Shown: piece after piece, positions 730 to 28,025 of the stretch
How positions within the stretch are numbered: the stretch's first letter is position 1
Layout: each line of letters begins with the position of its first letter
Source of the DNA: an uncultured Flavobacteriaceae bacterium
Lineage (GTDB): Bacteria > Bacteroidota > Bacteroidia > Flavobacteriales > Flavobacteriaceae
DNA: 32,199 nucleotides
NCBI GenBank assembly: GCA_913030895.1
Contig: CAJWGK010000014.1
Coordinates: forward strand, 1 to 32,199
Reading direction: 5' to 3'
Notes under the pieces: model-generated
Databases searched by the model: none
What the model was told of the DNA's origin: nothing
What the model saw: only the letters and a program-made list of their open reading frames with translations
Position numbers and translations under genes: made by a program

Positions 730-1125
730 GGGGTCGACTGGTTTTGACAGCAGGTTCCCATGACGGAGTAAGCAGGTCGAGCGCTGAGACACAGCTCGTA
801 AATCATATGTTTCACACTTTAAATGGCGAGAATAACTACGCTCTAGCTGCATAATTGACTGAATTACAGTAAGTCATTGCCTAGTCCCGACCAGGTCGGG
901 AAGCCGGATGTCTCTCGATAGCCCTTGTTGACGGCGATCGATATTGAGGCACCATAAATGTCAACATCGAAATGCTATAGCATCGCTAGCGTTTTTCAAT
1001 AAAGATGATAAGGGTATCTAGGGCGGTTTTCGGTCACTGATACCTCGAAAAACAAACGAGAACTAAACCTGTAGAAAGCTCGGTTGTGACTTGTTTGGAC
1101 GCGGGTTCGATTCCCGCCGACTCCA
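730..1125 (+). ncRNA. ssrA: transfer-messenger RNA (tmRNA)
   Basis: tmRNA rescues stalled ribosomes: its alanyl-tRNA-like end enters the A site and its short reading frame adds a degradation tag. The 5' end GGGGUCGAC pairs with the 3' end CGACUCC to form the acceptor stem (one G-U pair). The T arm GCGGGTTCGATTCCCGC (1101-1117) is intact. The tag frame runs from GGC at 825 to TAA at 852-854 and encodes GENNYALAA, ending in the usual ALAA degron; the exact resume codon is inferred. A strong helix TCCCGA...TCGGGA (about 886-902) fits a pseudoknot-region stem. After the discriminator A (1125) the DNA reads CTA rather than CCA, so the CCA end must be added by nucleotidyltransferase. The length of about 396 bases is normal. 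Confidence 0.97.
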
Positions 1126-1131
1126 CTAATT

Positions 1132-2775: not shown

Positions 2776-4116
2776 TTAGAAATCTCGATTTTTTCCACTC
2801 AGAAATGCATTTGCTGCAGCTTCTTTAAATTCAGCTTTTTGACTGTCCCAATGCAAAGTTTTATTGGGGAATCTTCCAGCAATAACCCCCAGAAGAATCG
2901 TTTCAGTCAATCTTGCTGCATATGAAAATGGCGCAGAAACCTTGTCAGTTCCGAGGCAGGTATCAACAAACTGGTGATAGTGCTTGGGGGCATCTCTTTC
3001 ATAATCATTAACCGTGAGGCCCAACTTACCTTTAGGGTCGTATTTTTTGATATCTATATCACTGTATTTACCATTAACAATCAAACGTGGTGGTTCCATA
3101 AAGTGTGGTAATAACAATCTCCCTTTTTCACCGATAAACATCGCGCCTTGTAACGGTAATTTATCCTGATTTGGTAATCTCAACTCTTTATGAGACAGAG
3201 GCGCCCCTTTACCATCATACCATATCCATTCTAATTGATCAGTAGTGTATGGGGTTCCTGGAAAAGTGTAGGTAACTATATTGTTTTCGGGGTAGCCAAA
3301 TCCATTCGGTTTTCGGCATTTATTTTTAACGGTTTTGGGAACATCCAGCGCCAAAGCATTGTAAGGGGTATCAAAAATATGAACGCCCATGTCTCCCAAT
3401 GTGCCACAACCAAAATCAACAAGTTTTCTCCAATTTCCAGGGTGGTAAATTTTCTCTTTGAAAGGACGTTCTTCAGCTGTTCCTAACCACAAATTCCAAT
3501 CTAAATTTGATGGAATAGCATCAGTTCCTTTGGGGTATGGGCCATCATACCCCCAGTTTTTAGGAGACCAGGCTCTTACCCGACTCACCTTCCCAATAAT
3601 ACCTGACTGAATCAATAAGGTTGCTAATTTATAATCGTAAAAGGAATGGACTTGAATACCCATTTGGGTGATCAAATTTTTCTCTTCGGCCATCTTTCTC
3701 ATAGCCCTCACCTCAGTCACATGGTGTGCCAAGGGTTTTTGACAATAGACCGCTTTATTTTTTTCCATAGCCATCAATGCAGCAGGCGCGTGCGTGTGAT
3801 CAGGGGTAGAAACGATTACCGCATCGATTTGATCTGATAACTCGTTTAACATCACACGGTAATCTTTGAAGGTTTTGGCATTAGGAAATTCTCCACCCAC
3901 CTTATCCAGCGCAATAGCATCTACATCACACAGACCAACAACCTGAACACTTTTATGGGAAATTAAAGCTTTAAGATCCTGATAACCCATACCTCCTATT
4001 CCTATATGCGCAGTCCTCAATTTTTTTTGCGCACTTCCTTGGGACATTAACGATTGAGGTAAAAAAACAGAAGAAGCAGCAATCGCTGAAGTTTTTAAAA
4101 AATCTCTTTTTTTCAT
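2776..4116 (-). CDS. exported Gfo/Idh/MocA family oxidoreductase
   Basis: An NAD(P)-dependent type sugar oxidoreductase predicted to work in the periplasm. The N-terminus has a Tat-like signal KRDFLK (3-8) followed by a hydrophobic stretch and a small-residue cleavage zone (about 11-27). It carries Lys-Arg where the canonical signal has Arg-Arg. The Rossmann dinucleotide motif GIGGMG is at 39-44. The family catalytic motif appears as CQKPL (125-129; Lys127), and GDMGVHIFD (241-249) supplies the Asp and His of the second active-site motif. The length (446) fits the secreted subgroup common in Bacteroidota and Planctomycetes. The gene is last in the minus-strand block, 11 bases after a DUF1080 lipoprotein. 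That pairing suggests oxidation of a sugar hydroxyl, possibly C3, to a keto group (inference). The exact substrate is unknown. Confidence 0.88.
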   Translation of the reverse strand: MKKRDFLKTSAIAASSVFLPQSLMSQGSAQKKLRTAHIGIGGMGYQDLKALISHKSVQVVGLCDVDAIALDKVGGEFPNAKTFKDYRVMLNELSDQIDAVIVSTPDHTHAPAALMAMEKNKAVYCQKPLAHHVTEVRAMRKMAEEKNLITQMGIQVHSFYDYKLATLLIQSGIIGKVSRVRAWSPKNWGYDGPYPKGTDAIPSNLDWNLWLGTAEERPFKEKIYHPGNWRKLVDFGCGTLGDMGVHIFDTPYNALALDVPKTVKNKCRKPNGFGYPENNIVTYTFPGTPYTTDQLEWIWYDGKGAPLSHKELRLPNQDKLPLQGAMFIGEKGRLLLPHFMEPPRLIVNGKYSDIDIKKYDPKGKLGLTVNDYERDAPKHYHQFVDTCLGTDKVSAPFSYAARLTETILLGVIAGRFPNKTLHWDSQKAEFKEAAANAFLSGKNRDF

Positions 4117-4127: not shown

Positions 4128-4847
4128 TTATAATTTTTTGATTTTAACGTTTTTAAACCACAGGTTGCTTCCATGATCCTGAAAGCCTATGAATCCTGTT
4201 TTGTATTTTGCATAATCAGGGGCATTGGTCCACTTCCCTGAATCCCTTCTTTTATACCAGTCCTCTGACCAAGGGGTAAAGTTTAAAACCATTCTCCCGT
4301 TTAGCCAATGTTCCACACGCTCGGGTGTAAAGACAATCCTACTGCTGTTCCATTCTCCAACAGGGTTTAATTTTTTTTGTAAAGTATCTGGTGTATGCAT
4401 GGCATAATCTGCAGCTGTTTTTTGCCATTCATTTAGCTTATAATTATGGACCTCCTCATAATTTTCGTCGTCGAGTAGTTGGTATTCAGGTGCTACCACA
4501 GGGGGGCCATCATAGCCTTCTTTGAGGTGATAAAAAATTCCACTGTTGCCACCTCTCGGAATTTTCCATTCTACATAAAGTTCAAAATTATCAAATTCCG
4601 TTGCACCATAAATGATATCTCTGCTGCCTTTATAATCATAATCTTTCTCAATGATTTGATCAGTAGTAAAAGTCAATACACTATCAACGATCTTCCAGCC
4701 AGGGGGCATTTGATCACCATTATAAGCACGCCAACCTTTGAGCGATGTTCCATCAAAAAGATTGATCCATTCACTACTGTTTTTTTTGGGTTGTTCTCCA
4801 CAAGATAGCAATGAGCAAAGTGTTAGAATCAAAAGTATTTTTTTCAT
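4128..4847 (-). CDS. DUF1080 lipoprotein (3-keto-disaccharide hydrolase family)
   Basis: A 239-residue lipoprotein: the signal peptide ends in lipobox LLSC with Cys16. The rest is one DUF1080 domain (Pfam PF06439, named 3-keto-disaccharide hydrolase), a concanavalin-like beta sandwich. Family landmarks are LFDGTSLKGW (30-39), PRGGNSGIFYHL (97-108) and EYQLLDD (121-127). Characterised members cleave glycosides whose sugar has first been oxidised to the 3-keto form, by elimination and hydration. The gene lies between two exported Gfo/Idh/MocA oxidoreductases, 11 bases from each, so the three were probably selected as a unit: oxidise, then cleave. Membership is clear; activity and substrate are inferred. 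Confidence 0.88.
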   Translation of the reverse strand: MKKILLILTLCSLLSCGEQPKKNSSEWINLFDGTSLKGWRAYNGDQMPPGWKIVDSVLTFTTDQIIEKDYDYKGSRDIIYGATEFDNFELYVEWKIPRGGNSGIFYHLKEGYDGPPVVAPEYQLLDDENYEEVHNYKLNEWQKTAADYAMHTPDTLQKKLNPVGEWNSSRIVFTPERVEHWLNGRMVLNFTPWSEDWYKRRDSGKWTNAPDYAKYKTGFIGFQDHGSNLWFKNVKIKKL

Positions 4848-4858: not shown

Positions 4859-6259
4859 TTAGTTAATAATTTCAAGTGGTGAGGTCGATTTCCAATTGCC
4901 TCGGGTAAAATCTGGAAATTGTTGTGGAGCACCATCTTGATCGACAGAGCGACCACTCAATTCAGTTACAGCACTCCAAAAGGCTCCCTCATAGACATTT
5001 TGATCAAGTGGCAATCCTTTTTGTAAACATTCAATGATACGATATCTCATGATACCGTCCATACCTCCGTGACCACTTCCTTTAGATTGTTGATTCAGTC
5101 TCTTATATAGAGGGTGATCGTATTTTTCATACACTTTTTCAAGTTGTTCGCCTTCCACCCAATGGTGGTGATCTTTAGTTATTCCTTCAACACCCCCTTC
5201 AAGGGCAACACGCGGGGGAAAACCTGCCAAAGCACCTTTTGTACCCTGAATTAAATTCAATCTTGAATAAGGTCTGGGGCTAGTTTCATCCCATTGAACA
5301 AGAATTGTTCTTCCCATTTCGGTCTTAACTATAGAGGTATTGAGGTCGCCATTTTGAAAATCGAGTTGATTCCACTTATGATCTTCTGGATAATTTTTAT
5401 TGGCATATGATGCCCTCCCTAGGGCAGGGGTAGAATAGGAAACGAGGCTTTTAAAATTATCATCTTTTCTTGCCAAACTCATGTATTGCGCAACAGGTCC
5501 AAGACCGTGGGTTGGATAAAGGTTCCCTTTTCCAGAGGCATATTGGGGGGTTCGCCAAGAGCCAGTCCCGCGCTCAACTTCATTCATCTGCCACCTCAAT
5601 TCATGGATGTAGGCAGCCTCGCCATGGAGAAGTTCTCCAATGACTCCTTTTCGACACATATTGAGATACATCAACTCTGTCCTCCCGTAATTGACGTTTT
5701 CCATCATCATACAGTGCCTCTGAGTTTTTTCGGAAGTATCTACGATGGCCCAAAGGTCTTTTATGTTAGTCGCAAGGGGAACTTCTACAAAAGCGTGGGC
5801 TCCTTTTCTCATACTTTCAATTGCCATTGGAGCATGATTTTTCCAATTGGTGGAAATGAATACCGCATCGGGTTTTACCTCCTCCAACATGGTTTTCCAT
5901 TTGTTTTCATCGCCCCAGTAAGTAGCGATATTCGTATGTTGGTTCTGATTATCAACCTGCTTGATCATGTTGATTTTATCTTTGACCTTATCTTCATACA
6001 AGTCACTTATCGCCACTACTTCAGTTCCTGGGAGATCCGCTATATACTTTAAATGTCCGCTCCCCCGATGTCCAACTCCAATGAAGGCAATCCGAACGTT
6101 ATCCAATTTTGGAGCAGCAAAATCGCCCATATACATACCACCCGAACTGGGCAGTAAACTATTGGAGTCATCACAAGTCGAAATTATCGGAGCAGCTGCA
6201 ATAGCAGCTGCAGATAATGAGGTTTTTTTTAAAAAATTCCTTCTGTCTAGCTTCTTCAT
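4859..6259 (-). CDS. Tat-exported GH109-like Gfo/Idh/MocA glycosidase/oxidoreductase
   Basis: Residues 1-30 form a canonical Tat signal (RRNFLKK at 6-12, then an Ala-rich segment). The mature part has the NAD motif GVGHRG (61-66), VEVPLA (158-163) in place of the usual EKP motif, MENVNYGR (186-193) and HGLGPVAQYM (251-260). These match the pattern of glycoside hydrolase family 109. Family members use tightly bound NAD+ to oxidise C3 transiently, eliminate the aglycone and re-reduce; the founding enzyme is an alpha-N-acetylgalactosaminidase. The length of 466 is typical. The gene starts the three-gene oxidise/cleave set with the DUF1080 and oxidoreductase genes downstream. N-acetylgalactosaminidase activity is possible, but GH109 homologues in environmental loci often have other substrates, so specificity is left open. 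Confidence 0.85.
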   Translation of the reverse strand: MKKLDRRNFLKKTSLSAAAIAAAPIISTCDDSNSLLPSSGGMYMGDFAAPKLDNVRIAFIGVGHRGSGHLKYIADLPGTEVVAISDLYEDKVKDKINMIKQVDNQNQHTNIATYWGDENKWKTMLEEVKPDAVFISTNWKNHAPMAIESMRKGAHAFVEVPLATNIKDLWAIVDTSEKTQRHCMMMENVNYGRTELMYLNMCRKGVIGELLHGEAAYIHELRWQMNEVERGTGSWRTPQYASGKGNLYPTHGLGPVAQYMSLARKDDNFKSLVSYSTPALGRASYANKNYPEDHKWNQLDFQNGDLNTSIVKTEMGRTILVQWDETSPRPYSRLNLIQGTKGALAGFPPRVALEGGVEGITKDHHHWVEGEQLEKVYEKYDHPLYKRLNQQSKGSGHGGMDGIMRYRIIECLQKGLPLDQNVYEGAFWSAVTELSGRSVDQDGAPQQFPDFTRGNWKSTSPLEIIN

Positions 6260-6319: not shown

Positions 6320-7705
6320 TTAATACACTACACTATCTGTATCCAGTTTTTCAAGTTCATAGTATTGTAGAAGAAAAACACTTTTCAAACTATCAGGGAT
6401 TTTTAGGTTGCTATTAAATTGTTTTTTGAGATTGAATAAATTAACTTTTTTAATTGTAGGAAAATTGTACATCTTAGTCAAGTTATGGATTTCGAAATCA
6501 GTATTTACCAAGTTGATCTCTTTCAGGTTTTTTAATTGTGACAAAAGTTCAATCTGGCTACCGTTTATTTTGGTATTATCCAATTTTAAAACAGTGAGGT
6601 TAGGTAGTTTTTGAATGACTCTAAAGACAGAATCTGTAACCTTTGTTTTTCCAAGATCAAGAGAAACAATATGCTCTTTTATGGGAAGTAAACTTTGCGC
6701 TGAAAGGTCGTTAAAATCGTGATAGTTAATACATGAAATTTTAAGTAAAGGAGAAGTTTTATAAATTGGTGAGATAAAAAAACCTTTTTTCTTTAACGCT
6801 TTTAAAACCTCGTTTTCAGCGGGTGCAATACTAATATCAGGGTAAATCCCCGTTGGGTTCTTTTCAAAAAATGAAGCAAATAATTCTTCCTCGATTTTCA
6901 ACGCTTCAATCGAAGCTTCTTTTGGTGCCCCATGAGCTATCCAGCGGCTTAGTAATACATTTTCGGATTTAGTTAGCTGAACTTTAGCTTTAGGAGGCAT
7001 ATGTTTTTCGTCCTCCAAAGGCAAATGGATTCTTTTAAGAAGTAAACTCTGTTCAGGATCGGCTTTAGAAAACAAACTTCCCCCTTCTCCTCCATTCATA
7101 ATTGATGGATAGTCAATCAATACCAATTCGCCTTTCTTTTTTTTAGGACTGTGACAACTGATACATTTTGCATTAAAAACAGGTTGAACTATCGCTTGGT
7201 ATAAAGACTGGCTCCGATAAGTTACTCGATCTAACTCAATTTTTTTTATGGGGTAATCAACGCCCAATATGGCTTTAAAATTATCGGGAAGTGGCGCAGT
7301 TAAATGATCTTTTCCGTGGGTTAGGTTTCCTCCTAGATGACCAGTAATAATTAGTGATAGGATTAAAAAGTAAACTAATATTTTCCGAGATTTAAATCCA
7401 ACGAAAAAAATTCTTTTAAGGTTTAAATAAATCGTAACAGCTATAATTAGGACAATAATCCCAAAAATTAAATGATTTTGAATATCCTCCCACGCATAAC
7501 CCTCTTGATTATATTGAACAAACCCTGTTATTAAAGCCAATAAAGTTGAAATTGCTCCCCAAAAAAAAGAGAAACGCATGATAGGGAGGTATTTGTCTTC
7601 GTTTCCCGAGTAAAAAATCATCAAGGCGCCCAAAAACAAAAATCCTATTGGAAGGTGAACTACCAGAGGGTGGAACCTACCGACAATATCAATGATGAAG
7701 TCCAT
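6320..7705 (-). CDS. membrane-bound c-type cytochrome with leucine-rich C-terminus
   Basis: A 461-residue three-part protein. Residues 1-125 contain four transmembrane segments (about 13-32, 44-65, 78-95, 108-125), with HPLVVHLP (12-19) and GHLGGNLTHG (122-131), as in DUF2231-like membrane domains. Residues about 165-265 form a planctomycete-type cytochrome domain with one heme site CISCH (181-185) and a possible Met ligand in MPP (236-238). Residues about 320-450 carry leucine-rich repeats (for example NLTVLKLDNTKI). The membrane anchor plus heme suggests passing electrons between periplasmic partners and the respiratory chain; the repeats would bind a partner. It follows the DUF1501 gene by 26 bases, completing a trio with the DUF1549/1553 protein. 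The domain reading is good; the electron-transfer role is inferred. Confidence 0.8.
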   Translation of the reverse strand: MDFIIDIVGRFHPLVVHLPIGFLFLGALMIFYSGNEDKYLPIMRFSFFWGAISTLLALITGFVQYNQEGYAWEDIQNHLIFGIIVLIIAVTIYLNLKRIFFVGFKSRKILVYFLILSLIITGHLGGNLTHGKDHLTAPLPDNFKAILGVDYPIKKIELDRVTYRSQSLYQAIVQPVFNAKCISCHSPKKKKGELVLIDYPSIMNGGEGGSLFSKADPEQSLLLKRIHLPLEDEKHMPPKAKVQLTKSENVLLSRWIAHGAPKEASIEALKIEEELFASFFEKNPTGIYPDISIAPAENEVLKALKKKGFFISPIYKTSPLLKISCINYHDFNDLSAQSLLPIKEHIVSLDLGKTKVTDSVFRVIQKLPNLTVLKLDNTKINGSQIELLSQLKNLKEINLVNTDFEIHNLTKMYNFPTIKKVNLFNLKKQFNSNLKIPDSLKSVFLLQYYELEKLDTDSVVY

Positions 7706-7731
7706 TTATTGATGATATACTTTTAATTAAA

Positions 7732-9228
7732 CTAGGCTAATATTTCATTGATCAATTGCCCCTCTACATCGGTTAATCTAAATGGCCTTCCCTGAAAATT
7801 ATAGGTAAATTCCTCATGATTAAAGCCAAGAAGGTGCAAAATAGTTGCCTGGATATCATAAACAGAAACGCGACCTTCCACCCCAGAATAGCCTATCTCA
7901 TCTGTAGCCCCGTGAACAGCTCCTTTTTTGATTCCACCCCCTGCAAGCCACATTGTGAATGCATCACCGTGATGATCTCTTCCTTTGTATTTGTGAGTTC
8001 TTCCTTCCCTGGTTTCCTGCATCGGGGTTCGACCAAATTCTCCCCCCCAGACAATTAATGTTTCGTCTAATAATCCTCTTTGCTTTAGGTCAAGGAGTAA
8101 CGCAGTTATCGGTCTATCAATCTCTCTACATTTATTTTTTAATCCTAAATCAACTGCAGTGCTGTGATTTGTCCCGTGACTGTCCCATCCCCAATCATAG
8201 AGCTGAACAAAACGAACACCCTCTTCTACCATTTTTCTTGCCAATAAGCAGTTGTTAGCAAAGGATTCCTTACCGGGTTCAACCCCATACATTTCTTTTA
8301 TAGCCTCAGGTTCATTATTGATATTCATAACCTCAGGCACAGCAGTTTGCATTCTGTAAGCCATTTCATATTGGTTGATGCGTGTGAGGACTTCTGGGTC
8401 TTTAAATTCTAAAAACTCTTTATAGTTAATAGCATTGATAGATTCCAAAACTTTCTTCTTGAGATGTCTCGGCACACCATCTGGATCTTTGAGGTATAAA
8501 ACGGGATCTCCTTTAGAACGACATTGAACACCCTGGTATATCGAAGGCAGGAAACCACTGCCCCAAACACTTTTTCCCGCATCTGGTGTTCCGCCAGATG
8601 TCAATACCACAAAGCCAGGAAGATTTTGATTTTCAGAGCCTAGCCCATAAGTAACCCAAGAGCCAATGCTGGGTCGACCAAATCGAGAACTACCGGTTTG
8701 CATTAGTAATTGAGCAGGACCGTGATTAAATTGGTCGGTATGAACTGCTTTTAAGAAGGCAACTTCATCAATCACTTTTTTAAAGTGAGGAAGGTAATCT
8801 GAAATCCAGTTTCCAGACTCTCCTGCCCTAGCAAATTTAGCTTGAGGGCCAAGCATATTGGGTACGCCTCTTATAAAAGCAAATTTCTTTCCATCCAACA
8901 GAGAACTTGGACAGGGTTGATTATGAAGTTTTGCTAACTCTGGCTTGTAATCAAACATTTCTAGCTGAGAGGGTGCACCTACCATATGTAAATAAATCAC
9001 ACTTTTAACCTTTGGAAGGTAGGGTGCGGGCAAGGGTGCCATTGGGTTTAGGCTTCTGTCCGAAAGGTAGTGTTGTTTATTTATTGATTTGTTATCACAA
9101 GAAGCCAAAAAACTCCCCAATGCCAATCCTCCAATTCCAAGGGCACATTCTTTTAAAAAATGCCTTCTAGTGTTGAGTTGTGCATTTTTTAACCGCTGTT
9201 CTCTAAGTAATTTTTCAATCCTTTCCAT
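7732..9228 (-). CDS. DUF1501 family Tat lipoprotein
   Basis: A 498-residue DUF1501 protein, a family with an alkaline-phosphatase/sulfatase-like fold and no firmly assigned reaction. An N-terminal 20-residue extension precedes the Tat signal RRHFLK (21-26), and the hydrophobic segment ends in LASC (Cys44), so it is probably a Tat-exported lipoprotein. Family sequences are clear: GAPSQLEMFDYKP, NHGPAQLLMQTG, YDWGWDSHG, WGGEFGRTP and GRDHHGDAFTMW. Several His/Asp residues in these could bind metal. DUF1501 and DUF1553 genes nearly always occur together; here they are 3 bases apart. Its job in the pair is unknown. The family call is sure. Confidence 0.92.
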   Translation of the reverse strand: MERIEKLLREQRLKNAQLNTRRHFLKECALGIGGLALGSFLASCDNKSINKQHYLSDRSLNPMAPLPAPYLPKVKSVIYLHMVGAPSQLEMFDYKPELAKLHNQPCPSSLLDGKKFAFIRGVPNMLGPQAKFARAGESGNWISDYLPHFKKVIDEVAFLKAVHTDQFNHGPAQLLMQTGSSRFGRPSIGSWVTYGLGSENQNLPGFVVLTSGGTPDAGKSVWGSGFLPSIYQGVQCRSKGDPVLYLKDPDGVPRHLKKKVLESINAINYKEFLEFKDPEVLTRINQYEMAYRMQTAVPEVMNINNEPEAIKEMYGVEPGKESFANNCLLARKMVEEGVRFVQLYDWGWDSHGTNHSTAVDLGLKNKCREIDRPITALLLDLKQRGLLDETLIVWGGEFGRTPMQETREGRTHKYKGRDHHGDAFTMWLAGGGIKKGAVHGATDEIGYSGVEGRVSVYDIQATILHLLGFNHEEFTYNFQGRPFRLTDVEGQLINEILA

Positions 9229-9231
9229 ACC

Positions 9232-11952
9232 TCAAGCGTGGGTTAAAAATTCATCTAAATTCATGATCGCATTAGCGACCAAAGTCAATGCGGCTAGAGA
9301 AATCTCTTGCATGTTTTTGTTCCCGAAAAAATTATCGAGTTGATCTGGTTTTTGTTCATATTCAATTAGCGCAGCCAAATACAACTGCTTTAATATTTCA
9401 AAAGTATCAGGGTTAATTTTTTTAAAAATAGCTGCTTCATACATTGCTTTAATCGCATTATCTGGCTGAAGCTTCTGATGATAAAGCTTAGCAAAATTTA
9501 AAGCCGCTTCTAGGTAAACAGGATCATTCATGGTAACCAGAGCCTGCAGTGGAGTATTGGTGGGTGTTCTTTTAACCAAACATACTTCCCTGCTTCCAGT
9601 ATCAAAAGTCATGAATGATGGGTACGGACTAGTACGCTTTAAAAAGGTATAAATTGCTCTTCTAAAACGGTCTTCTCCCTTACTTTCCACCCATAAATTA
9701 CCTAAATAAGCATGTTCCCAAACACCATCTGGCTGTGGAGGCATAACACCTGGCCCATACATTTTATCGCTCAGCAAACCAGAAACGAAGAGCGCCTGAT
9801 CTCTAATTTGTTCCGCTGTAAGCCTAAATTTAGGCCCCCTAGCATAAAAATTATTTTGAGGGTCTGCCCTATGTTTTTTGTCAAAAACTGCTGAACTCTG
9901 ACGGTAGGTTCCCGACATGACAATAGATTTTATAAGACTTTTTAAACGCCATTTTTGGGAATCAACAAATTCAACTGACAACCAATCTAGTAAGGCTGGA
10001 TGCGTTGGCGGAGAAGATTGTGAACCCAAATCTTCTATTGTAGTGACCAATCCCTTGCCAAAAATTTGATCCCAAACACGGTTAACCAATGTCCTAGAGG
10101 TCAACGGATTTTCACTACTGACAATCCAGCGGGCTAGACCCAATCGGTTTTTGGGCCAGTTTTTTTCCCATCGATTGATCACTGCTGGAGTACCAGCAGC
10201 TACAATTTCTTTTTTCATCAACCAATTTCCCCTATCAAATACATGGGTCGTTCTTTTCATGTAATCGGGGTTTTCCGACATTATTGGCGTCATGGTTTGG
10301 GGGGTATTCATCACCTCCAATAAATCATCCGCCACCTCGGCATAACCATCAGAACCTTTTCCAGGGAGATCTGGCACGAAAGCAAACCATAAAATCCTGC
10401 TGGTAGATGATTGAGGGGATAAATCATCATTTTTTGCTTCTATAAATAGGTCTATTGGTTTATCGACTTTAGCAAAAGAGAATCTAGCTATTTTCCAATC
10501 TGATTTTTTTAGCTCCATTTTTCCTAGAATCTTTCCTTTTGAGTCGTTTTCTCGTAAGGTGATTTTAGAGTTTTTGTGTGGGGTTTCATAATAGATATAA
10601 AGACTAGTATTTCCTTTTGAATGGACGTCCCTAAGTAAAGCTGTTCCATTATTCCACAACGCTAGATACTTGCTGTCACTAAGTTCACCGTTGACAAAAT
10701 TCTCGCAATTGTGAAGCTGATATTTGGGCTCCATGAATTGAATGATCTTTTTAAATGCATCATGCGATTCATCTGTTCCATGTTTTTTAATCCAGGATAA
10801 AATCCTTTCAATTTTTTTATTGTTTTCGATGGAATAAGTTCTAAAGTTAGGGGCTTCATCTGGCGTGTCCTCATCTCTAGAATTGTTAAAGAACGCCATT
10901 AACTGATAATAATCCTTTTGTTTAAAAGGATCATAAGGATGTCCATGACACTGCACGCAACTCATGGTAGTACTTTGCCAAACGTCAAATGTGGTATTGA
11001 CACGATCTAAAACAGAAACCACCCTAAACTCCTCATCTTCAGTACCGCCTTCATCGTTATTCATGGTGTTGCGATGAAAACCAGTAGCTATTAACTGATC
11101 TGCGGTAGGATCGGAATATAGGTCCCCAGCCAATTGATCCATTGTGAACTGGTCAAAACTCAAATCCTTATTAAAAGCCTTTATTACCCAATCGCGATAT
11201 TGCCAAATGGATCTTTGAGGGTCTTTTTCATAGCCCTTAGAATCGGCATATCGAGCTAAATCAAGCCACCAACTTGCCCATTTTTCGCCGAAAGAATCAA
11301 ACGAAAGTAAACTATCAACCAGACTTTCATAATTGATCTGCCCATCAATAAATGCATTGAATATGGCTTTTTTTGGAGGTAAGCCTGTCAAATCAAGTGC
11401 CACCCTTCTTGCCAAAATTTCCTTTTTAGCCTGCTGATTTGGTAATAGATTTTTTTCTTCTAATCGGGCAGCAATAAAACGATCAATTGGATTAATAATG
11501 AATTCCATATCACTGTAGTTTTGATCTACCACTGGTGGAGTAGTTTTCTCAGGTTTCTGGTACGCCCAATGCGTTCCCCATTTGGCACCTTGATCAATCC
11601 ATTGCGTAAGTATTTTAATTTCCTCTTTTGATAATGCAGCCTTTTGGTAGGGCATTCTCAACTCGGGATCGGATTCATGCAGTCGTTTAATTAAGGGGCT
11701 ATTTCTGGCATCCCCAGGAATAATAGCTGGATGACCTGATGCTGTTTTACCCAAAGCCTCTTCTTGGAACAACAGACTAAAACCTGCATTTTTTTTTACC
11801 CCTCCGTGGCAAGCAATACAGTGATTATTAAGAATGGGTTTGACATGGATAGCGTAATCAATTTCTTCTTTTGGACGCAGTGTAAAAAAAAGAATGATGG
11901 ACAGACTAAGTATCCCAATCAATAATAACGGTAATGTTTGTTTTGGCTTCAA
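9232..11952 (-). CDS. DUF1549/DUF1553 protein with cytochrome c sites (PSCyt1-PSCyt2-PSD1)
   Basis: A 906-residue periplasmic protein anchored by one N-terminal hydrophobic segment (8-25). Residues about 35-125 form a PSCyt1 domain with heme motif CIACH (45-49). A DUF1549/PSCyt2 region (about 150-370) holds a second CxxCH, CVQCH at 332-336. A DUF1553/PSD1 region (about 610-870) has the family signatures RLGLARW, LVNRVWDQIFGKGLV, RLTAEQIRDQAL and TPLQALVTMNDP. The architecture is abundant in Planctomycetes and Verrucomicrobia and found in some Bacteroidota. The function is unproven; heme sites and constant pairing with DUF1501 point to redox work on extracellular glycans. It lies 107 bases after the Kazal gene, the largest gap inside this block, so an internal promoter is possible, though I found no exact TAnnTTTG there. 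Confidence 0.93.
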   Translation of the reverse strand: MKPKQTLPLLLIGILSLSIILFFTLRPKEEIDYAIHVKPILNNHCIACHGGVKKNAGFSLLFQEEALGKTASGHPAIIPGDARNSPLIKRLHESDPELRMPYQKAALSKEEIKILTQWIDQGAKWGTHWAYQKPEKTTPPVVDQNYSDMEFIINPIDRFIAARLEEKNLLPNQQAKKEILARRVALDLTGLPPKKAIFNAFIDGQINYESLVDSLLSFDSFGEKWASWWLDLARYADSKGYEKDPQRSIWQYRDWVIKAFNKDLSFDQFTMDQLAGDLYSDPTADQLIATGFHRNTMNNDEGGTEDEEFRVVSVLDRVNTTFDVWQSTTMSCVQCHGHPYDPFKQKDYYQLMAFFNNSRDEDTPDEAPNFRTYSIENNKKIERILSWIKKHGTDESHDAFKKIIQFMEPKYQLHNCENFVNGELSDSKYLALWNNGTALLRDVHSKGNTSLYIYYETPHKNSKITLRENDSKGKILGKMELKKSDWKIARFSFAKVDKPIDLFIEAKNDDLSPQSSTSRILWFAFVPDLPGKGSDGYAEVADDLLEVMNTPQTMTPIMSENPDYMKRTTHVFDRGNWLMKKEIVAAGTPAVINRWEKNWPKNRLGLARWIVSSENPLTSRTLVNRVWDQIFGKGLVTTIEDLGSQSSPPTHPALLDWLSVEFVDSQKWRLKSLIKSIVMSGTYRQSSAVFDKKHRADPQNNFYARGPKFRLTAEQIRDQALFVSGLLSDKMYGPGVMPPQPDGVWEHAYLGNLWVESKGEDRFRRAIYTFLKRTSPYPSFMTFDTGSREVCLVKRTPTNTPLQALVTMNDPVYLEAALNFAKLYHQKLQPDNAIKAMYEAAIFKKINPDTFEILKQLYLAALIEYEQKPDQLDNFFGNKNMQEISLAALTLVANAIMNLDEFLTHA

Positions 11953-12059: not shown

Positions 12060-12320
12060 TTATGGACAAGCTCCCGCTTCCCAATACTTAATTCCAAAGG
12101 ACTCCGCTACGCAGTCGTTTGAATAGGTCTTATTATCACAACCACAAACTGGCATATATTCTTTGGTACAGGAAATGGTTTTTTTCGGTCCGATACAATC
12201 GTCGTTATTATTCGAGGATTTGTCACATGCTGAAATAAATAATAGTATCCCGAATATAGGTGATGACAATATTTTAAAATGGTTTAGAATTACAGTGGTA
12301 TTATTGTAAGGTTCTTCCAA
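12060..12320 (-). CDS. small lipoprotein with a Kazal-type protease-inhibitor domain
   Basis: An 86-residue protein whose C-terminal half (about 42-85) is a Kazal domain. Six cysteines (42, 51, 59, 61, 70, 85) frame the signature YMPVCGCDNKTYSNDC. Kazal domains present a loop that inhibits serine proteases. The N-terminal half has a hydrophobic stretch ending in lipobox ISAC (Cys32), so the domain would be tethered to the membrane surface. The ATG at 12320 overlaps the end of the upstream DUF1080 gene by 31 bases. A later TTG (MSSPIFGILL...) would give a shorter signal, so the start is uncertain. It might protect secreted enzymes from proteases or defend against grazers; neither is shown. The domain call is strong. 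Confidence 0.85.
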   Translation of the reverse strand: MEEPYNNTTVILNHFKILSSPIFGILLFISACDKSSNNNDDCIGPKKTISCTKEYMPVCGCDNKTYSNDCVAESFGIKYWEAGACP

Positions 12321-12985
12321 CGAATCTTCTTATTCTTTTTTAAAGTATTTTTTCCTATCCCATGCAGTTGAAGTGCGATGAAGCCATCAGCCGTTAAATC
12401 ATCATAGACATCTGCGATCATTACATCATTGATCCAAGACTGAATATGATCTCCTTTAACATGAACCTTGAAATGATTCCACTCTAGAGGTTTAAACGCA
12501 GCCTTGACTGTTTCATTTACCCCTGGGGTATGTAAAAAGCCTCTTCCTCCCTCTTCATAGAGCGCACCACTCCAAGCTCGGCTAGTTGGATCAATTTCTA
12601 TTTGATAGCCCCAAAACCTTCCAGCTGGCCATTTGCGTTCAATCGTAGATTTATTCCCGTCTTCATCAAACTTTCCACCCCAACGAATAGTTGTCGTTTT
12701 TTTTTCATAAATATTACTTCTGATCTGAACTCCAGAATTTAATACCGTATCTAATTTTACGTCGAATTCCAGAACGAAATCTTGGTATTTTTTTTCTGTA
12801 TGTAAAAAGGTATTGGGCAATCCATCGATTGATTCCGCCACTATACAGTCGTCCTCAACATAAAATTTACCTCCACCGTAATTCACCCACCCGTCCAAGT
12901 CAGTACCGTTAAATAATTGAACCTCTTTCTCCTTACAAGCGTTTAATACTAAAAACAGCAATATTGGATAAAAATATTTTTTCAT
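12290..12985 (-). CDS. DUF1080 lipoprotein (3-keto-disaccharide hydrolase family), second copy
   Basis: A 231-residue DUF1080 lipoprotein with lipobox LNAC (Cys17). Landmarks are LFNGTDLDGW (24-33), LNSGVQIRS (82-90), GYQIEID (126-132) and GFIALQLHG (201-209), giving the normal single-domain length. It differs widely from the copy at 4128-4847, so the two probably act on different substrates rather than being a recent duplication. It lies 37 bases after the GH29 fucosidase and overlaps the Kazal gene by 31 bases. It may cleave a 3-keto glycoside made by one of the exported oxidoreductases (inference from the family). Confidence 0.87.
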   Translation of the reverse strand: MKKYFYPILLFLVLNACKEKEVQLFNGTDLDGWVNYGGGKFYVEDDCIVAESIDGLPNTFLHTEKKYQDFVLEFDVKLDTVLNSGVQIRSNIYEKKTTTIRWGGKFDEDGNKSTIERKWPAGRFWGYQIEIDPTSRAWSGALYEEGGRGFLHTPGVNETVKAAFKPLEWNHFKVHVKGDHIQSWINDVMIADVYDDLTADGFIALQLHGIGKNTLKKNKKIRWKNLTIIPL

Positions 12986-19836: not shown

Positions 19837-20505
19837 TTATTTTTTTACTTTTTTTATTAAGGCTAAAGTGGTTTTAACTTTATTTTCAAGTGCTTTAAAA
19901 TCCTCATTGGCCAAAATATCTTTTGAGATTAGTTTTGATCCCATACCTACACAAACTACCCCAGCGTCAAACCATGCTTTTAAATTATCCTCTTCGGTAC
20001 TCACTCCTCCAGTGGGCATGATACTCGTCCATGGTTGGGGTCCTTTGATCGCTTTCACAAACCCTGGACCATAAGTGCTTCCTGGAAATAGTTTTATTAT
20101 TTCTCCCCCCAACTCTTCGGCTCTGGCAATTTCAGTTAATGAACCACATCCGGCAGACCAAAGCACTTTTCTTCTATTACAAACCACAACAATGTCTTCT
20201 CTTAAAACTGGAGTAACGATAAAATTAGCTCCCAATTGCATGTAAAGTGAGGCAGCTGCCGCATCGGTAACAGAACCTACGCCCAAAATCATCTCGGGTA
20301 ACTCAGCCAGCGCATACTTGTTTAACTCCTCAAATATTTGGTGAGCAAAGTCTCCCCTACTAGTAAATTCAAAGAGTCTCGCACCACCTTGGTAACAGGC
20401 TTTTAAGGTTTTTTTAGCGACCTCGATATCGCTGTGATAAAATAATGGCACCATACCAGTCTCTGCCATTTTTGTTGCTACTTCTAATCGATTAAATTTT
20501 GCCAT
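19837..20505 (-). CDS. kdgA: 2-keto-3-deoxy-6-phosphogluconate (KDPG) aldolase
   Basis: A class I aldolase cleaving KDPG to pyruvate and glyceraldehyde 3-phosphate, the last step of hexuronate breakdown. The 222-residue cytoplasmic protein has the family TIM-barrel motifs. Active-site Glu46 and Arg50 are in FEFTSRGD, and the Schiff-base Lys138 is in IIKLFPG. GVGSVTDA (75-82) and MPTGGVS near the C-terminus bind phosphate. The strand between them (VTPVLRED, 97-104) lacks the usual SPG form, as in the variant common in Bacteroidota. It starts 7 bases after kdgK ends, so they form a two-gene unit. Confidence 0.93.
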   Translation of the reverse strand: MAKFNRLEVATKMAETGMVPLFYHSDIEVAKKTLKACYQGGARLFEFTSRGDFAHQIFEELNKYALAELPEMILGVGSVTDAAAASLYMQLGANFIVTPVLREDIVVVCNRRKVLWSAGCGSLTEIARAEELGGEIIKLFPGSTYGPGFVKAIKGPQPWTSIMPTGGVSTEEDNLKAWFDAGVVCVGMGSKLISKDILANEDFKALENKVKTTLALIKKVKK

Positions 20506-20512
20506 AATTCAG

Positions 20513-21553
20513 TTATCTAGCGACTCGGCCACTTGCATCGCCGCCCATTAATTTTTCTACTTCTTCCACTGTGACCAGATTTGCATCTCCTTTAATGGTG
20601 TGCTTTAAGCACGAGGCTGCCACAGCATAATTAAGTGCATTTTGATCATCATCAGGATATTTTAACAAACCGTAAATCAACCCACCCATAAAGGAATCTC
20701 CTCCTCCAACACGATCAACGATATGAGTGATTTGATATTCAGGACTGGTATAAATATTTGTACCATCATATAAAATTCCCGCCCATGTATTGTGGGATGC
20801 AGATATAGAACCCCTTAGAGTAGTAATTACCTTTTTTGCTTTTGGAAATTTCTTCATCATTTGCTCACAAACGGACTGAAAGGCTTCAGCCTTAACTTGA
20901 TCTCCTTGTGTGGTAATATCTAACCCTTCGGGCTTAATTCCAAAATGTTTTTCGGCATCTTCTTCATTACCTAAAATAACGTCGCAATAGGAGGTCAACT
21001 CAGTCATGATAGGTTCAGAAGGTTGACCATATTTCCATAGTTTAGCGCGATAGTTTAGATCTGTGGAAATTGTTATTCCTTTTTCGCTAGCAATCTTTAC
21101 CGCTTCCAAACAGGCATCGGCAGCACCTTGAGAAATTGCAGGAGTAATTCCGGTCCAATGAAACCAACTGACACCATCAAAGACTGCGTCCCAATCCACC
21201 ATTCCAGCACTAATTTCAGCCATAGCGGAATGGGCTCGATCATAAACCACCTTACTCCCTCTACTGACAGCTCCAGTTTCCAAAAAATAAATTCCCAAAC
21301 GATCTCCTCCGTGAACAATGTGTTGGGTGCCGACCCCTCTTTTTCTCATTTCCATCATGGCACAGTCGCCAATGTCATTTTTGGGTAATCTGGTAACAAA
21401 TTCAACGGGAACACCATAATTAGCAAGAGATACGGCGACGTTTGACTCTCCTCCACCATATACAACATCAAAACTATTGGCTTGAGAAAATCTTAAATTA
21501 CTAGCAGGAGAAAGTCTTAACATGATCTCTCCGAAGGCTACTACTTTTTTCAT
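20513..21553 (-). CDS. kdgK: 2-keto-3-deoxygluconate kinase, PfkB family
   Basis: Phosphorylates KDG to KDPG with ATP. The 346-residue protein has the N-terminal PfkB region FGEIMLRLSP and YGGGESNVAVSLANYG (32-47). The C-terminal signature is DRVGGGDSFMGG (280-291), with catalytic-base Asp286. The C-terminal assignment to KDG rather than fructose rests on sequence style and on the adjacent kdgA, uxuA and uxaC. A long leader of about 145 bases, with a good Bacteroidota promoter at its start, lies upstream, so kdgK-kdgA is probably transcribed separately from the TRAP operon. Confidence 0.93.
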   Translation of the reverse strand: MKKVVAFGEIMLRLSPASNLRFSQANSFDVVYGGGESNVAVSLANYGVPVEFVTRLPKNDIGDCAMMEMRKRGVGTQHIVHGGDRLGIYFLETGAVSRGSKVVYDRAHSAMAEISAGMVDWDAVFDGVSWFHWTGITPAISQGAADACLEAVKIASEKGITISTDLNYRAKLWKYGQPSEPIMTELTSYCDVILGNEEDAEKHFGIKPEGLDITTQGDQVKAEAFQSVCEQMMKKFPKAKKVITTLRGSISASHNTWAGILYDGTNIYTSPEYQITHIVDRVGGGDSFMGGLIYGLLKYPDDDQNALNYAVAASCLKHTIKGDANLVTVEEVEKLMGGDASGRVAR

Positions 21554-21858
21554 TAATTTCTTAATTTAATTTTATTTAGGTTTTCTGTTATTGGGGCAAG
21601 CTCAATTAAATTAACCTGCCAAGTACTTTTGTCTTAAAACTGTTTGCTATAAGACCAATAAAATCTTGTGAAACAAATTACCGATTCTCAAAAATTTCAG
21701 GGTCAAAAATACGTTATTTTCTTGTTTAGCAAATCCCATTCTTAATAATCCAACTGGTAAAGGGTTTAAATGAAAAAGATAATGGCGCCAAAACATTGAA
21801 TACAAGAAATGATTAGGAATTAAATTTTAGTTTATTATTCTTTTTCGTTATTTAATTT
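21554..21858. other. intergenic region: kdgK leader and promoter, end of TRAP operon
   Basis: No open frame of interest. It holds a promoter at 21704-21733 reading toward kdgK and a stem-loop at 21595-21620 in the leader: GGCAGGTT pairs with AGCTTGCC on the minus strand, eight pairs including two G-U, with a 10-base loop. An AT-rich stretch follows the dctM stop, in which no clear terminator is seen. Confidence 0.5.
21704..21733 (-). promoter_or_regulatory. kdgK-kdgA promoter (TTTG-N18-TATTTTTG) with overlapping inverted repeat
   Basis: On the minus strand a -33 TTTG (21733-21730) is followed after 18 bases by TATTTTTG (21711-21704), an exact TAnnTTTG box. Spacing is close to the Bacteroidota norm. 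The imperfectly spaced inverted repeat AAAATA-CGT-TATTTT (21706-21720) covers the -7 box and could be an operator. The expected transcript starts near 21697. Confidence 0.6.
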
Positions 21859-23157
21859 TTAAACACCAAAGAATTCGGGTAGCCACAAGCTTAGCTGAGG
21901 TATATAGGTTACCAAAAACAGCGACAATATCATAACCAAAAATAATGGAATCAATGGCTTGATAACTTTTGATATGGATGTTTTGGCAATACCCACTCCA
22001 ACAAAGAGTACAGATCCTACAGGTGGCGTACAAAGACCAATACATAGGTTGAGCATCAATACAATACCAAAATGGGTGGGATCCATACCTAATGCAGTCA
22101 CAATGGGAAGGAAAATTGGTGTGAAAATTAGTACCGCAGGGGTGGCGTCCATAAAAACACCAACAGCCAATAGGATTAAATTGATCATTAACAGAATTAC
22201 AATTTTATTATCACTAATGGACAACAATGCATTACTAATATCCTGAGGGATATTTTCATACGAAAGCACCCATGACATACACATGGAAGCTCCGATCAAT
22301 AACATTACAATGGCAGTGGTCTCAACGGATTCTAAAATCACCTTTGGCAAGTCATTCATTGACAATTCTTTATAATAAAAGGAAAGTAAGACCGTATATA
22401 TTACTGCAACAGCTGAAGCTTCTGTTGCAGTAAAAACACCTCCTATAATTCCACCAATTACGATTACTAAAAGGAGTAAACTTGGAAATGCATCAATAAA
22501 CGCGACAAAAACTTCTTTTAAAGTAGCGCGTTTACCGACAGGGTAATTGTTCTTCTTTGCCCAAATCATTGCAACGATCATCATTAATAATCCAGTTAAA
22601 ATTCCAGGAATATAACCCGCCAAAAACAAAGCAGCAATGGACACCCCACCACTGGCTAGGGAATAGACTATTAGGGTATTGCTCGGAGGAATCACCAGTC
22701 CGGTGGTTGAAGATGTTATATTTACTGCGGCTCCAAACTCTTTGGAGTAACCTTCTTTTTCCATCTCTGGGCCTAAAATAGTTCCCATTGCGGAGGCTGA
22801 TGCCATTGCAGATCCTGCGATAGCTCCCATCAACATGGCAGAAACAATATTGATTAATGCAAGTCCACCGGGTAAAAAACCTACAAGTGTCTTGGCAAAA
22901 GAAATCAACCGATGAGCAATTCCCCCTTTACTCATTATCTGACCCGACAGTATAAAAAACGGTATGGCGAGTAGTGCAAAACTATCAAGGCCGGTAGCTA
23001 TTCTTTGAGAAACAGTGGTAGCAGCAGCCGAGAAAGGCATCGCAACCATCAAAGTAAACATCGAAGAGGTGGCAATACACCAGGCTACAGGAACACCCAT
23101 CATCAGCAAGACTAAAAAAGAAAGAACGAGGACTATTACGGGAAGAAATTCAATCAT
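21859..23157 (-). CDS. dctM: TRAP transporter large permease (DctM)
   Basis: The transport subunit of a sodium-coupled tripartite (TRAP) importer. It has 432 residues with around a dozen hydrophobic segments. The family signature region GSAMASASAMGTILGPEM is followed by ITSSTTGLVIPPSN, and a matching second half near the C-terminus reads FGIVLMLNLCIGLCTPPVG. It works with the small permease, whose gene overlaps its start by 8 bases, and with the binding protein upstream. In this operon the most likely cargo is a hexuronate. Confidence 0.93.
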   Translation of the reverse strand: MIEFLPVIVLVLSFLVLLMMGVPVAWCIATSSMFTLMVAMPFSAAATTVSQRIATGLDSFALLAIPFFILSGQIMSKGGIAHRLISFAKTLVGFLPGGLALINIVSAMLMGAIAGSAMASASAMGTILGPEMEKEGYSKEFGAAVNITSSTTGLVIPPSNTLIVYSLASGGVSIAALFLAGYIPGILTGLLMMIVAMIWAKKNNYPVGKRATLKEVFVAFIDAFPSLLLLVIVIGGIIGGVFTATEASAVAVIYTVLLSFYYKELSMNDLPKVILESVETTAIVMLLIGASMCMSWVLSYENIPQDISNALLSISDNKIVILLMINLILLAVGVFMDATPAVLIFTPIFLPIVTALGMDPTHFGIVLMLNLCIGLCTPPVGSVLFVGVGIAKTSISKVIKPLIPLFLVMILSLFLVTYIPQLSLWLPEFFGV

Positions 23158-23617
23158 GACGGAGCTTCTTTAAATCTAAAATTTTGTAAAAAATAATTAG
23201 CAAGCCACTCAGAGGAATAACAGCATAAACTACTCCAAGGGGAATTTTAAGGGCAGGTGAGAGTTGCTCCAAAAATAGGGTGACATAAACCAGTCGCAGT
23301 CCACCGACTAGCATTCCAAAAAGAGCAAAACTTAAAACAATGAGATTGATAATTACTTTAACTCTTTTTTGATTGACTGGACTAAATTTTTCAGAAAAAT
23401 AAGTGATCGCAACATGATTTCCTTTCCCCGCAACATAAGCGGCTCCTAATACCCCAACCCAGATCATTAGGTAACGAGCCAGTTCATCAGTAAATGAACT
23501 TGGATTGGCCAAAAGATATCGCGAAAACACTTGCCATAATACATTGATCACCATCAATGACATAATTGCCACAAGCGTACGCTCCAAAACCTTATCAATT
23601 TGGGCTCTTAATTTCAT
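23150..23617 (-). CDS. dctQ: TRAP transporter small permease (DctQ)
   Basis: A 155-residue protein with four transmembrane segments (about 14-32, 47-65, 88-108, 127-146). It shows the family patterns VLWQVFSRYLLANPSSFTDELARYLMIWVG (20s-50s, in parts) and VAGKGNHVAI. It supports the large permease and docks the binding protein. It overlaps dctM by 8 bases and starts two bases after the dctP stop, so the three are translationally linked. Confidence 0.9.
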   Translation of the reverse strand: MKLRAQIDKVLERTLVAIMSLMVINVLWQVFSRYLLANPSSFTDELARYLMIWVGVLGAAYVAGKGNHVAITYFSEKFSPVNQKRVKVIINLIVLSFALFGMLVGGLRLVYVTLFLEQLSPALKIPLGVVYAVIPLSGLLIIFYKILDLKKLRHD

Positions 23618-23619
23618 CT

Positions 23620-24597: not shown

Positions 24598-24602
24598 TGG
24601 TT

Positions 24603-26006: not shown

Positions 26007-26008
26007 TG

Positions 26009-27193: not shown

Positions 27194-27203
27194 ATTTCTT
27201 GAT

Positions 27204-28019
27204 TTAAACCCCACTGAAGGCGCTAAAACCGCCGTCGATAGGGAGTACAACTCCAGTTATAAATTGGGCAGCGTCACTACACAAAAAGTGAATGGCACCA
27301 TTTAATTCTTCAGCTTCACCAAATCGTTTCATTGGAGTATTTCTAATAATTGTATCTCCTCTTTCGGTATAGGTTCCGTCTTCATTGAGTAAAAGGGCAC
27401 GATTTTGATTTCCAACAAAAAAACCAGGTGCAATCGCATTAACCCTAACGCCTGATCCAAACTTCAATGCCATCTCAACGGCCATCCAACGCGTAAAATT
27501 CTCAATCCCCGCTTTTGAGGCCGAATATCCTACCACCCTAGTGATAACACGATCCACGCTCATTGAGGAATAATTAATAATTGATCCTCTTTTTTGTTCT
27601 GCCATAATTTTACCAAATACCAAGGAAGGAATTACAGAACCATTGAGGTTCAATTCGGTGACTTTCTTAAAGTCGTCCATGGATAAGTCAAAAATAGTCT
27701 GATCAACGGCTATGGTCGCTCCGGGCATATTACCGCCTGCTGCGTTTAGGAGTATGTCTACCCTACCCCACTCGGCTAAAATCTCTTGGCTTATTTTCTC
27801 AATGGACTCTTTTGAGAGTACGTTAGCGGCAAAGCCTATCGCTGATCCTCCAAAACTTTTAATCACGTCAACTGTCTTTTGTGCTGACGCTTCGGTAAGA
27901 TCTAGGATAGCAATTTTAACGCCTGACTGTGCCAAGCTCTGTGCTATGCATCCCCCAAGCGCTCCTCCTCCTCCGGTAATTACTGCAACTTTGTTATTTA
28001 AATCAAAATTTGGTTTCAT
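27204..28019 (-). CDS. SDR-family oxidoreductase, likely fructuronate reductase
   Basis: A 271-residue short-chain dehydrogenase with TGGGGALG (15-22) for NAD(P), NAAGG (92-96) and the catalytic YSASK (165-169; Tyr165, Lys169). The C-terminal part includes [14 protein letters not shown], characteristic of the SDR group placed beside uxuA in many genomes and annotated as D-mannonate oxidoreductase. It would reduce fructuronate to mannonate, replacing the unrelated long-chain UxuB of E. coli. Pathway logic supports this, since without it no enzyme in the window links UxaC to UxuA. The family is certain; the substrate is a strong inference. Confidence 0.88.
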
Positions 28020-28025
28020 AGGTAA

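Follow-up and report, generated by a model that had tools for sequence, protein, structure and literature searches.

Gene content of the locus

We analysed a window of 32,199 nt (the whole stretch of DNA, from an uncultured Flavobacteriaceae bacterium), in which Pfam identifies three neighbouring genes on the minus strand: a PSCyt1-PSCyt2(DUF1549)-PSD1(DUF1553) diheme-motif protein (906 aa, TTG start; 9232-11952), a DUF1501 protein (498 aa; 7732-9228) and a membrane cytochrome with DUF2231, PSCyt1 and an LRR-like C-terminus (461 aa; 6320-7705). According to the ORF table, the spacings are 3 bp between the diheme and DUF1501 genes, 26 bp between the DUF1501 and cytochrome genes and 60 bp between the cytochrome gene and a GH109-like Gfo/Idh/MocA gene, whose product has a Tat-type start by eye (4859-6259). 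This downstream flank continues with a DUF1080 protein (4128-4847) and a Gfo/Idh/MocA oxidoreductase (2776-4116), whose best NCBIfam model, the BT_2158 glycoside 3-dehydrogenase (NF058561), scores 307.5 bits and misses its cut-off of 750. Upstream, the trio is bordered by a small ORF for a Kazal-like lipoprotein (about 12060-12269), also found in all four trio-less loci aligned, followed by another DUF1080 protein (3-keto-disaccharide hydrolase family; 12290-12985) and an alpha-L-fucosidase (GH29, PF01120; 13023-14825). Both DUF1080 proteins have lipoprotein-like N-termini, and all of these flanking genes are on the minus strand. Pfam and the ORF table thus bear out the original prediction of a fucosidase/DUF1080 pair on one side and an oxidise-then-cleave set on the other, on a single strand. 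A Pfam scan of 20 window proteins found neither a SusC/SusD pair, the mark of a Bacteroidota PUL, nor a GMC oxidoreductase (the LacA-type catalytic subunit). The window's own genome contains a cytochrome c assembly gene (PF01578).

The diheme protein matches PSCyt1 (PF07635, E-value 3.8e-13), PSCyt2/DUF1549 (PF07583, 5.6e-76) and PSD1/DUF1553 (PF07587, 8.8e-91), all above cut-off within the single 906-aa chain, and has a hydrophobic N-terminal stretch at residues 3-28. Its translation carries the heme motifs CIACH (residues 45-49) and CVQCH (332-336). An alignment of 55 PSCyt2-PSD1 rows, the window's among them, shows no variation at C332, C335, H336 and H338 or at many further charged residues, and conservation of at least 90% at C45, C48, H49 and M100. 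A confident structure model (pLDDT 88.4) contains a CBM6-like domain, predicted at about residues 417-526; such a fold alone is no proof that the protein binds sugar. Structure comparison with the PDB gave no convincing match for the model outside this part, and no match to an oxygenase or peroxidase fold.

The DUF1501 protein matches its family over the full length (PF07394, 500 bits, E-value 6.7e-150, profile positions 2-390 of 390). At its start, TIGR01409 matches a twin-arginine signal, and the LASC after it reads by eye as a lipobox-like motif, in agreement with the protein's predicted lipoprotein nature. Its fold is that of the sulfatase/alkaline-phosphatase superfamily, and only its C-terminal part aligns with sulfatases (E-value 5.6e-7). 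A CxPSR-type motif marks the active site of canonical FGly sulfatases; it is present in the A5 sulfatases and missing from the DUF1501 translation, which therefore does not classify as a canonical FGly sulfatase. Sequence searches against solved structures returned nothing for either the DUF1501 or the diheme protein, and for the membrane cytochrome they returned only LRR matches.

In the membrane cytochrome, PSCyt1 is matched at 42.3 bits against a cut-off of 22 (PF07635, E-value 1.2e-10), DUF2231 passes marginally at 27.1 against 26.4 bits (PF09990, 5e-6) and LRR_4 stays under its cut-off. The DUF2231 part holds four hydrophobic segments, and the translation has a single heme motif, CISCH, at residues 181-185. 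In an alignment of 64 membrane-cytochrome rows (one being the window's, and two coming from genomes that other rows represent as well), C181, C184, H185 and M236 are 100% conserved and His12, His17, His78, His123 and His130 are 98-100% conserved. This conservation in homologues, together with that of the PSCyt2-PSD1 alignment, indicates that the heme motifs are not chance occurrences. Pfam, the translations and the homologues consequently confirm the prediction of three heme motifs in two proteins with DUF1501 between them.

Distribution and insertion history

We found the trio at the window's site, alongside DUF1080 and Gfo genes, in 12 of the genus's 17 assessable genomes. In five sister genomes (G003, G005, G006, G013 and G019), the DUF1080-GH109-DUF1080-Gfo set is kept and the site has no trio. 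Stand-alone trios occur at other places in the genus as well as in other genera. By its flanking genes, the window groups with the trio-less species, and an rpoB tree agrees with the flanking genes for G003, G005 and G013.

Separate insertion was tested because BLAST identities suggested it, ahead of the concatenated trio tree; eight in-site congeners were used and the fragmentary G012, G014 and G017 were left out. Constraining the window's trio to group with these congeners was rejected with the full concatenation (p-AU 0.019), after removing the long row G002_alone (p-AU 6e-5), after removing G002_alone, G018 and G002_in (p-AU 2e-4) and for two single genes (PSCyt, p-AU 0.013; DUF1501, p-AU 0.011). 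The test did not reject the constraint for the membrane cytochrome by itself or after removing FlavoMAG (L092) together with G002_alone, when the best tree itself unites window and congeners (74/69). Therefore, the data do no more than suggest that the trios of the window and its congeners entered the site separately; a single insertion followed by one loss is a possible alternative history.

A PSCyt protein accompanies DUF1501 in 76 of 80 loci, and a membrane cytochrome in 40 of them. Outside the genus (78 loci), neither Gfo nor DUF1080 genes are enriched near the trio: 10 Gfo genes were found against about 8.0 expected, and 6 DUF1080 genes against about 4.5, the expectations being derived from gene densities in 20 of the outside-genus genomes. 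Conserved linkage to DUF1080 and Gfo, set beforehand as a check on the original prediction, thus holds within the genus and fails beyond it. A xylose-isomerase-like TIM-barrel protein with an export-type N-terminus is present in 25 of the 80 loci, all within the 48 counted as Bacteroidota; this set was collected by similarity, and the four members checked with Pfam (L034, L099, L104 and L130) match AP_endonuc_2, three of them above cut-off. In four Dyadobacter loci, a gene for an L-rhamnose mutarotase separates DUF1501 from the cytochrome; the two examined with Pfam and the one examined with NCBIfam scored above cut-off. In the single locus of each kind scanned with Pfam, a type B trio has sulfatases on the other strand at a distance of about 4 kb, and a type C trio adjoins a PL8 lyase. 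Several trios of Flavobacteriaceae, Algoriphagus and Dyadobacter sit amid genes of housekeeping appearance, as judged by eye; RmuC, thioesterase or SHMT genes lie near those of L042 and L048.

Role of the trio and direction of electron flow

According to the original prediction, reduced cofactor made by the exported Gfo/Idh/MocA enzymes could be re-oxidised by the trio, which would deliver the electrons to respiration. Gfo/Idh/MocA and DUF1080 genes do share an operon-like run with a heme-motif, membrane-linked unit, recurrently in the genus, and the separate site entry that the trees suggest without settling would fit such a role. However, the five sister genomes retain these genes without the trio, which elsewhere shows no Gfo or DUF1080 enrichment and recurs with other partners, so that it does not appear to be an outlet those oxidoreductases need. 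Pfam detected no NADH-oxidising domain in the trio and no flavin-, PQQ- or NAD-binding domain in any of its three proteins. Moreover, the accessible text of PMC10628242 describes GH109 elimination as coupled to an oxidation that is only transient, and GH109 should consequently need no external outlet. We regard cofactor re-oxidation as improbable.

Electrons could instead run in reverse, from quinol through the membrane cytochrome to a diheme protein that would be a heme enzyme using oxygen or peroxide to act on carbohydrate. The invariant CxxCHxH of PSCyt2 and the other invariant charged residues would suit such an enzyme, and excerpts of PMC5615132 report PSCyt genes to be commoner in epilimnion genomes, with oxygen availability suggested as one factor. 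As likely axial ligands, the conserved M100 and M236 speak for simple electron transfer, and with no oxygenase or peroxidase fold match we judge this flow quite unlikely. The trio may also serve the envelope more generally, as a redox or hydrolase module whose position in the glycan locus is an incidental, hitchhiking insertion. Stand-alone trios and presence or absence at one site are consistent with this; the site shared by most of the judged genomes, the short intergenic gaps, the sugar-type companions elsewhere and the CBM6-like domain argue against it, leaving it a real, if minor, possibility.

A predicted sugar-oxidising unit

The reading we prefer, tentatively and at somewhat below even probability, is that the trio is an autonomous, quinone-linked periplasmic redox unit that oxidises a sugar or sugar derivative and that, in this genus, became part of a 3-keto-type glycan locus by insertion. 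The trio comprises a diheme-motif protein, a Tat/lipoprotein-type DUF1501 protein and a membrane cytochrome, in which four hydrophobic segments are combined with a single heme c domain that probably lies on the periplasmic side. The diheme protein would hold carbohydrate through its CBM6-like domain and oxidise it, with DUF1501, of sulfatase-like fold, as its presumed closely paired partner. Electrons would travel along the hemes into the membrane cytochrome and leave it for the quinone pool or a terminal oxidase, and a b-heme or quinone site may be held by the cytochrome's five conserved His. The TIM-barrel protein or the L-rhamnose mutarotase may act on the substrate or on the product. Within the window's genus, where the trio lies within a locus with DUF1080 and GH109 (and, in the window, a fucosidase), it would give oxidised sugar to the 3-keto-type pathway rather than merely drain NADH.

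Points for a sugar-oxidising unit are the conserved heme motifs and axial Met, the five His, the CBM6-like region, the frequency of PSCyt proteins and membrane cytochromes in the DUF1501 loci, the TIM-barrel and mutarotase companions, the nearby sulfatases and PL8 lyase, the PF01578 gene and the LacABC precedent. Points against it are the absence of Pfam cofactor domains, the lack of a convincing PDB match for the rest of the diheme model, the housekeeping-like surroundings and an inverse correlation of PSCyt with glycoside hydrolases. We know of no enzymatic activity for PSCyt2, PSD1 or DUF1501, and no title among the literature matches listed, which cover subscription literature thinly, concerned their function. 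Of the LacABC proteins, LacA is a flavin enzyme of the GMC type and LacB is a cytochrome. Glycoside pathways of oxidation, elimination, hydration and reduction were reportedly described by Nasseri in Nature in 2024.

In the accessible text of PMC9007349, LacABC is a membrane-bound periplasmic lactose 3-dehydrogenase encoded near DUF1080, which resembles the trio's predicted sugar oxidation; unlike LacABC, the trio has no flavin enzyme among its Pfam domains. The oxidation-elimination-hydration-reduction pathways likewise oxidise sugar at position 3 and then cleave it, as we propose here (PMC10628242, in part), and a 3-keto-glycoside eliminase shares its fold class with the trio's TIM-barrel companions, whereas "cytochrome" has 0 occurrences in the main text of that paper. 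PSCyt/PSD proteins of Planctomycetes and Verrucomicrobia have the same domains as the trio; according to parts of PMC5615132 and PMC2754498, their PSCyt2 genes adjoin a gene family of no assigned role, near sulfatases, and a redox or carbohydrate role was proposed for them. The former source also gives the inverse correlation between PSCyt gene and glycoside hydrolase densities (r = -0.62, excerpted text). In contrast to those systems, the unit described here includes a membrane cytochrome, is joined in other genera by a TIM barrel or mutarotase and lies, in the window's genus, within a DUF1080/GH109 locus.

The component families are known, and from their sequences we hypothesize a joint role that they may have. 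More specifically, although we think it rather unlikely, PSCyt2-PSD1 and DUF1501 could represent a periplasmic sugar dehydrogenase of a new class, cytochrome-linked and free of flavin, with a 6-deoxyhexose as a possible substrate, feeding the quinone pool via the DUF2231 b/c-type membrane cytochrome and coupled in this genus, perhaps twice independently, to a 3-keto glycan pathway. The Bacteroidota version of the trio is small and operon-like, and its carriers include named strains of Dyadobacter, Pedobacter and Algoriphagus, which makes its function directly testable. Its membrane electron outlet and sugar-type companions provide a concrete hypothesis on what that function may be.

Trio composition and heme ligands

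The original prediction described a redox trio with three heme motifs, and ORF calls, Pfam, NCBIfam and translations confirm its three genes, domains, motifs and neighbours. On the minus strand lie a PSCyt1-PSCyt2-PSD1 diheme protein (9232-11952), a DUF1501 protein (7732-9228) and a DUF2231-PSCyt1-LRR membrane cytochrome (6320-7705). Across 55 aligned rows, the CxxCH of the PSCyt2 domain is the best-conserved motif (C332, C335, H336 and H338 are invariant), which rules out a chance occurrence there, while C45, C48, H49 and M100 of the first heme motif are at least 90% conserved. In the membrane cytochrome, C181, C184, H185 and M236 occur in 64 of 64 rows (two rows repeat genomes already included), with His12, His17, His78 and His123 conserved in 100% and His130 in 98%. 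The data establish the trio's composition, conserved heme ligands and hydrophobic anchoring, and its cytochromes would be expected to carry covalent heme. Judging by hydropathy and by the loop that joins segments 3 and 4, which is rich in lysine and arginine, the membrane histidines are predicted to lie on the periplasmic side, as is the heme c domain. A PDB sequence search with this cytochrome gave matches confined to its LRR-like C-terminus. The neighbouring oxidoreductases are likely exported, judging by N-termini such as the Tat-type MKKLDRRNF of GH109.

AlphaFold produced good models of the diheme protein (pLDDT 88.4, pTM 0.89) and DUF1501 (pLDDT 85.3, pTM 0.83). One part of the diheme model has solved relatives: all matches with E < 0.001 are CBM6 modules or CBM6-bearing enzymes (1.8e-5 to 6.1e-4), with TM-scores by target of up to 0.77. 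The match table carries no query range, and this CBM6-like part would correspond to a strand-rich stretch at approximately residues 417-526. The DUF1501 model matches LtaS, sulfatases and alkaline phosphatase, and the alignment with sulfatases obtained by profile comparison (E 5.6e-7) covers its C-terminal part; the CxPSR motif is absent from DUF1501.

Occupancy of the site within the genus

Forty genomes were searched, including the window's own incomplete assembly (1.97 Mb, 86.6% complete). PSD1 was found in 24 of them, with every one of the 22 genus genomes positive, and DUF1501 in 27. Three trio types can be told apart by how long the PSD1 frame is: about 920 aa in the window's type, and 1080 and 775 aa in the other two. 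The genus has a conserved gene run of propeller, DUF1080, Kazal-like ORF, trio site, GH109, DUF1080 and Gfo, which in the window extends from the upstream DUF1080 (12290-12985) to GH109 (4859-6259), the second DUF1080 (4128-4847) and Gfo/Idh/MocA (2776-4116). In 6 of 22 genus genomes (G000, G001, G009, G010, G015 and G021), the trio occupies this site on a contig that also carries both flanks. In another 6 (G002, G008, G012, G014, G016 and G017), the contig carries the trio and one flank, although some of these hold part of the trio only, the contig ending inside; the upstream DUF1080 of G016 is on a separate contig and adjoins a different gene. The trio is missing between assembled flanks in 5 of 22 (G003, G005, G006, G013 and G019). 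The remaining 5 were not judged: G004, G011, G018 and G020, whose site is not in the sequence covered, and G007, where other genes follow DUF1080 and neither trio nor GH109 is on that contig (L170). The G007 arrangement speaks rather against a universal linkage, and a window-type DUF1501 match in this genome is on a short contig. Window-type trios also occur elsewhere, without DUF1080 or GH109 adjoining, in G002, G004, G018 and G022. Within the genus, the trio is linked to the DUF1080/Gfo locus. In the stand-alone trio of G018 (L058 8234-12282), the PSCyt protein and DUF1501 are split into several frames, by pseudogene formation or assembly errors.

The Kazal-like lipoprotein ORF (12060-12269, minus strand, possible TTG start) is present in trio-bearing and trio-less loci alike and is kept in all four trio-less loci aligned, of the five (G013 is not among them); its product could be a protease inhibitor. 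Elsewhere, a tmRNA gene with tag GENNYALAA lies near the start of the window (730-1126, plus strand), and the strand that carries the glycan genes also encodes a uronate-type catabolic set (19837-29225: a TRAP transporter with UxaC, UxuA, KDPG aldolase and a sugar kinase).

The trees for GH109, both DUF1080 genes and Gfo group the window with trio-less species, and the rpoB tree agrees for the genomes present in it. This flanking-gene grouping is not clearly recovered for the trio proteins. Holding the window's trio in a single clade with its in-site congeners was rejected in most data sets tested; it was not rejected with two rows removed, nor for the membrane cytochrome alone. Repeated insertion of the trio at the site is at most suggested.

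The window's own genome contains a second trio of a different type (type B, contig C37, L042 1-13500). In this one locus scanned, the other strand encodes two sulfatases at a distance of about 4 kb, and RmuC, lipase-like and thioesterase genes lie in between. In the one type C locus scanned (L048 12110-16522, the 775-aa type), a PL8 polysaccharide lyase directly follows the trio and SHMT precedes it; its membrane cytochrome has Fn3_assoc and CHB_HEX_C_1 domains.

Trio loci outside the genus

Of the relatives matched in a scan with the DUF1501 alignment, at least 586 in number, the best 80 were analysed; they include two genus members (L089 and L090). Among these best 80, a PSCyt-PSD protein was found in 76 loci and the membrane cytochrome in 40 (42 prior to a length filter), with a profile broad enough that single cases, mostly non-Bacteroidota, may be other PSCyt1 proteins. 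DUF1080 was found in 6 and Gfo in 9 of the best 80, using profiles that were grown from the window's genes and may have lower sensitivity than the Pfam models. Once L089 and L090 are set aside, the set holds 6 DUF1080 and 10 Gfo genes in 1.32 Mb, many loci being cut by contig ends. Twenty of the non-genus genomes, of which only L143's represents the 32 loci not counted as Bacteroidota, together amount to about 104.6 Mb, with 359 matches for DUF1080 and 631 for Gfo (summed from tables; domain places, with two-domain proteins counted twice). The expected counts in 1.32 Mb are thus about 4.5 and 8.0, respectively. Because the observed counts are near these expectations, there is no clear DUF1080 or Gfo enrichment near the trio outside the genus; across these 78 loci, the trio shows no wider linkage to DUF1080/Gfo. 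Gfo and DUF1080 do lie near the trio in L143 (Spartobacteria), and L128 (1781-10008) is another of the few such non-genus cases: its trio comes after a galactokinase and leads directly into two Gfo/Idh/MocA genes whose products have Tat-like starts.

We found, by sequence similarity, a recurrent TIM-barrel companion of 290-320 aa within the trio run in 25 of the best 80 loci, all 25 falling in the 48 counted as Bacteroidota, a set that includes L111 (Beijerinckiaceae by record). L111 has a Bacteroidota-like trio and TIM barrel, and is perhaps misbinned or transferred. The companion is also present in L034 and L040. By eye, companion N-termini are Sec-like or Tat-like. Of four companions tested against Pfam AP_endonuc_2, those of L034, L099 and L130 scored above the cut-off and that of L104 below; a protein adjoining DUF1501 in L122, outside the similarity set, matches it too. 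Passages of PMC10628242 place a 3-keto-glycoside beta-eliminase among the TIM-barrel sugar isomerase-like enzymes, a fold class that the companions share. Four Dyadobacter loci (L130, L131, L132 and L134) carry an L-rhamnose mutarotase gene, placed between those for DUF1501 and the cytochrome; the L130 protein scores 101.3 against an NCBIfam cut-off of 99.6. A Barstar-family protein directly follows the trio's TIM barrel in L130 (14277-14717).

A possible redox role

The trio's cytochromes had been proposed as a possible electron outlet for the exported oxidoreductases. If that outlet serves NADH, every genome with a working Gfo pathway should need the trio; the five sister genomes with Gfo pathway genes and a trio-less site speak against this, these genomes being incomplete and having other trio types elsewhere. 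A limited literature search found no description of the membrane-cytochrome trio, its TIM barrel and mutarotase association, or its insertion into a DUF1080 locus. The component families are already known: passages of PMC2754498 propose them as redox-active, and of PMC5615132 as possibly carbohydrate-linked and of unknown function. For the trio as a unit, we infer that a carbohydrate may be the substrate and that a quinone may be the electron acceptor, with a putative direction of electron flow through the trio and a putative role for DUF1501 within it.
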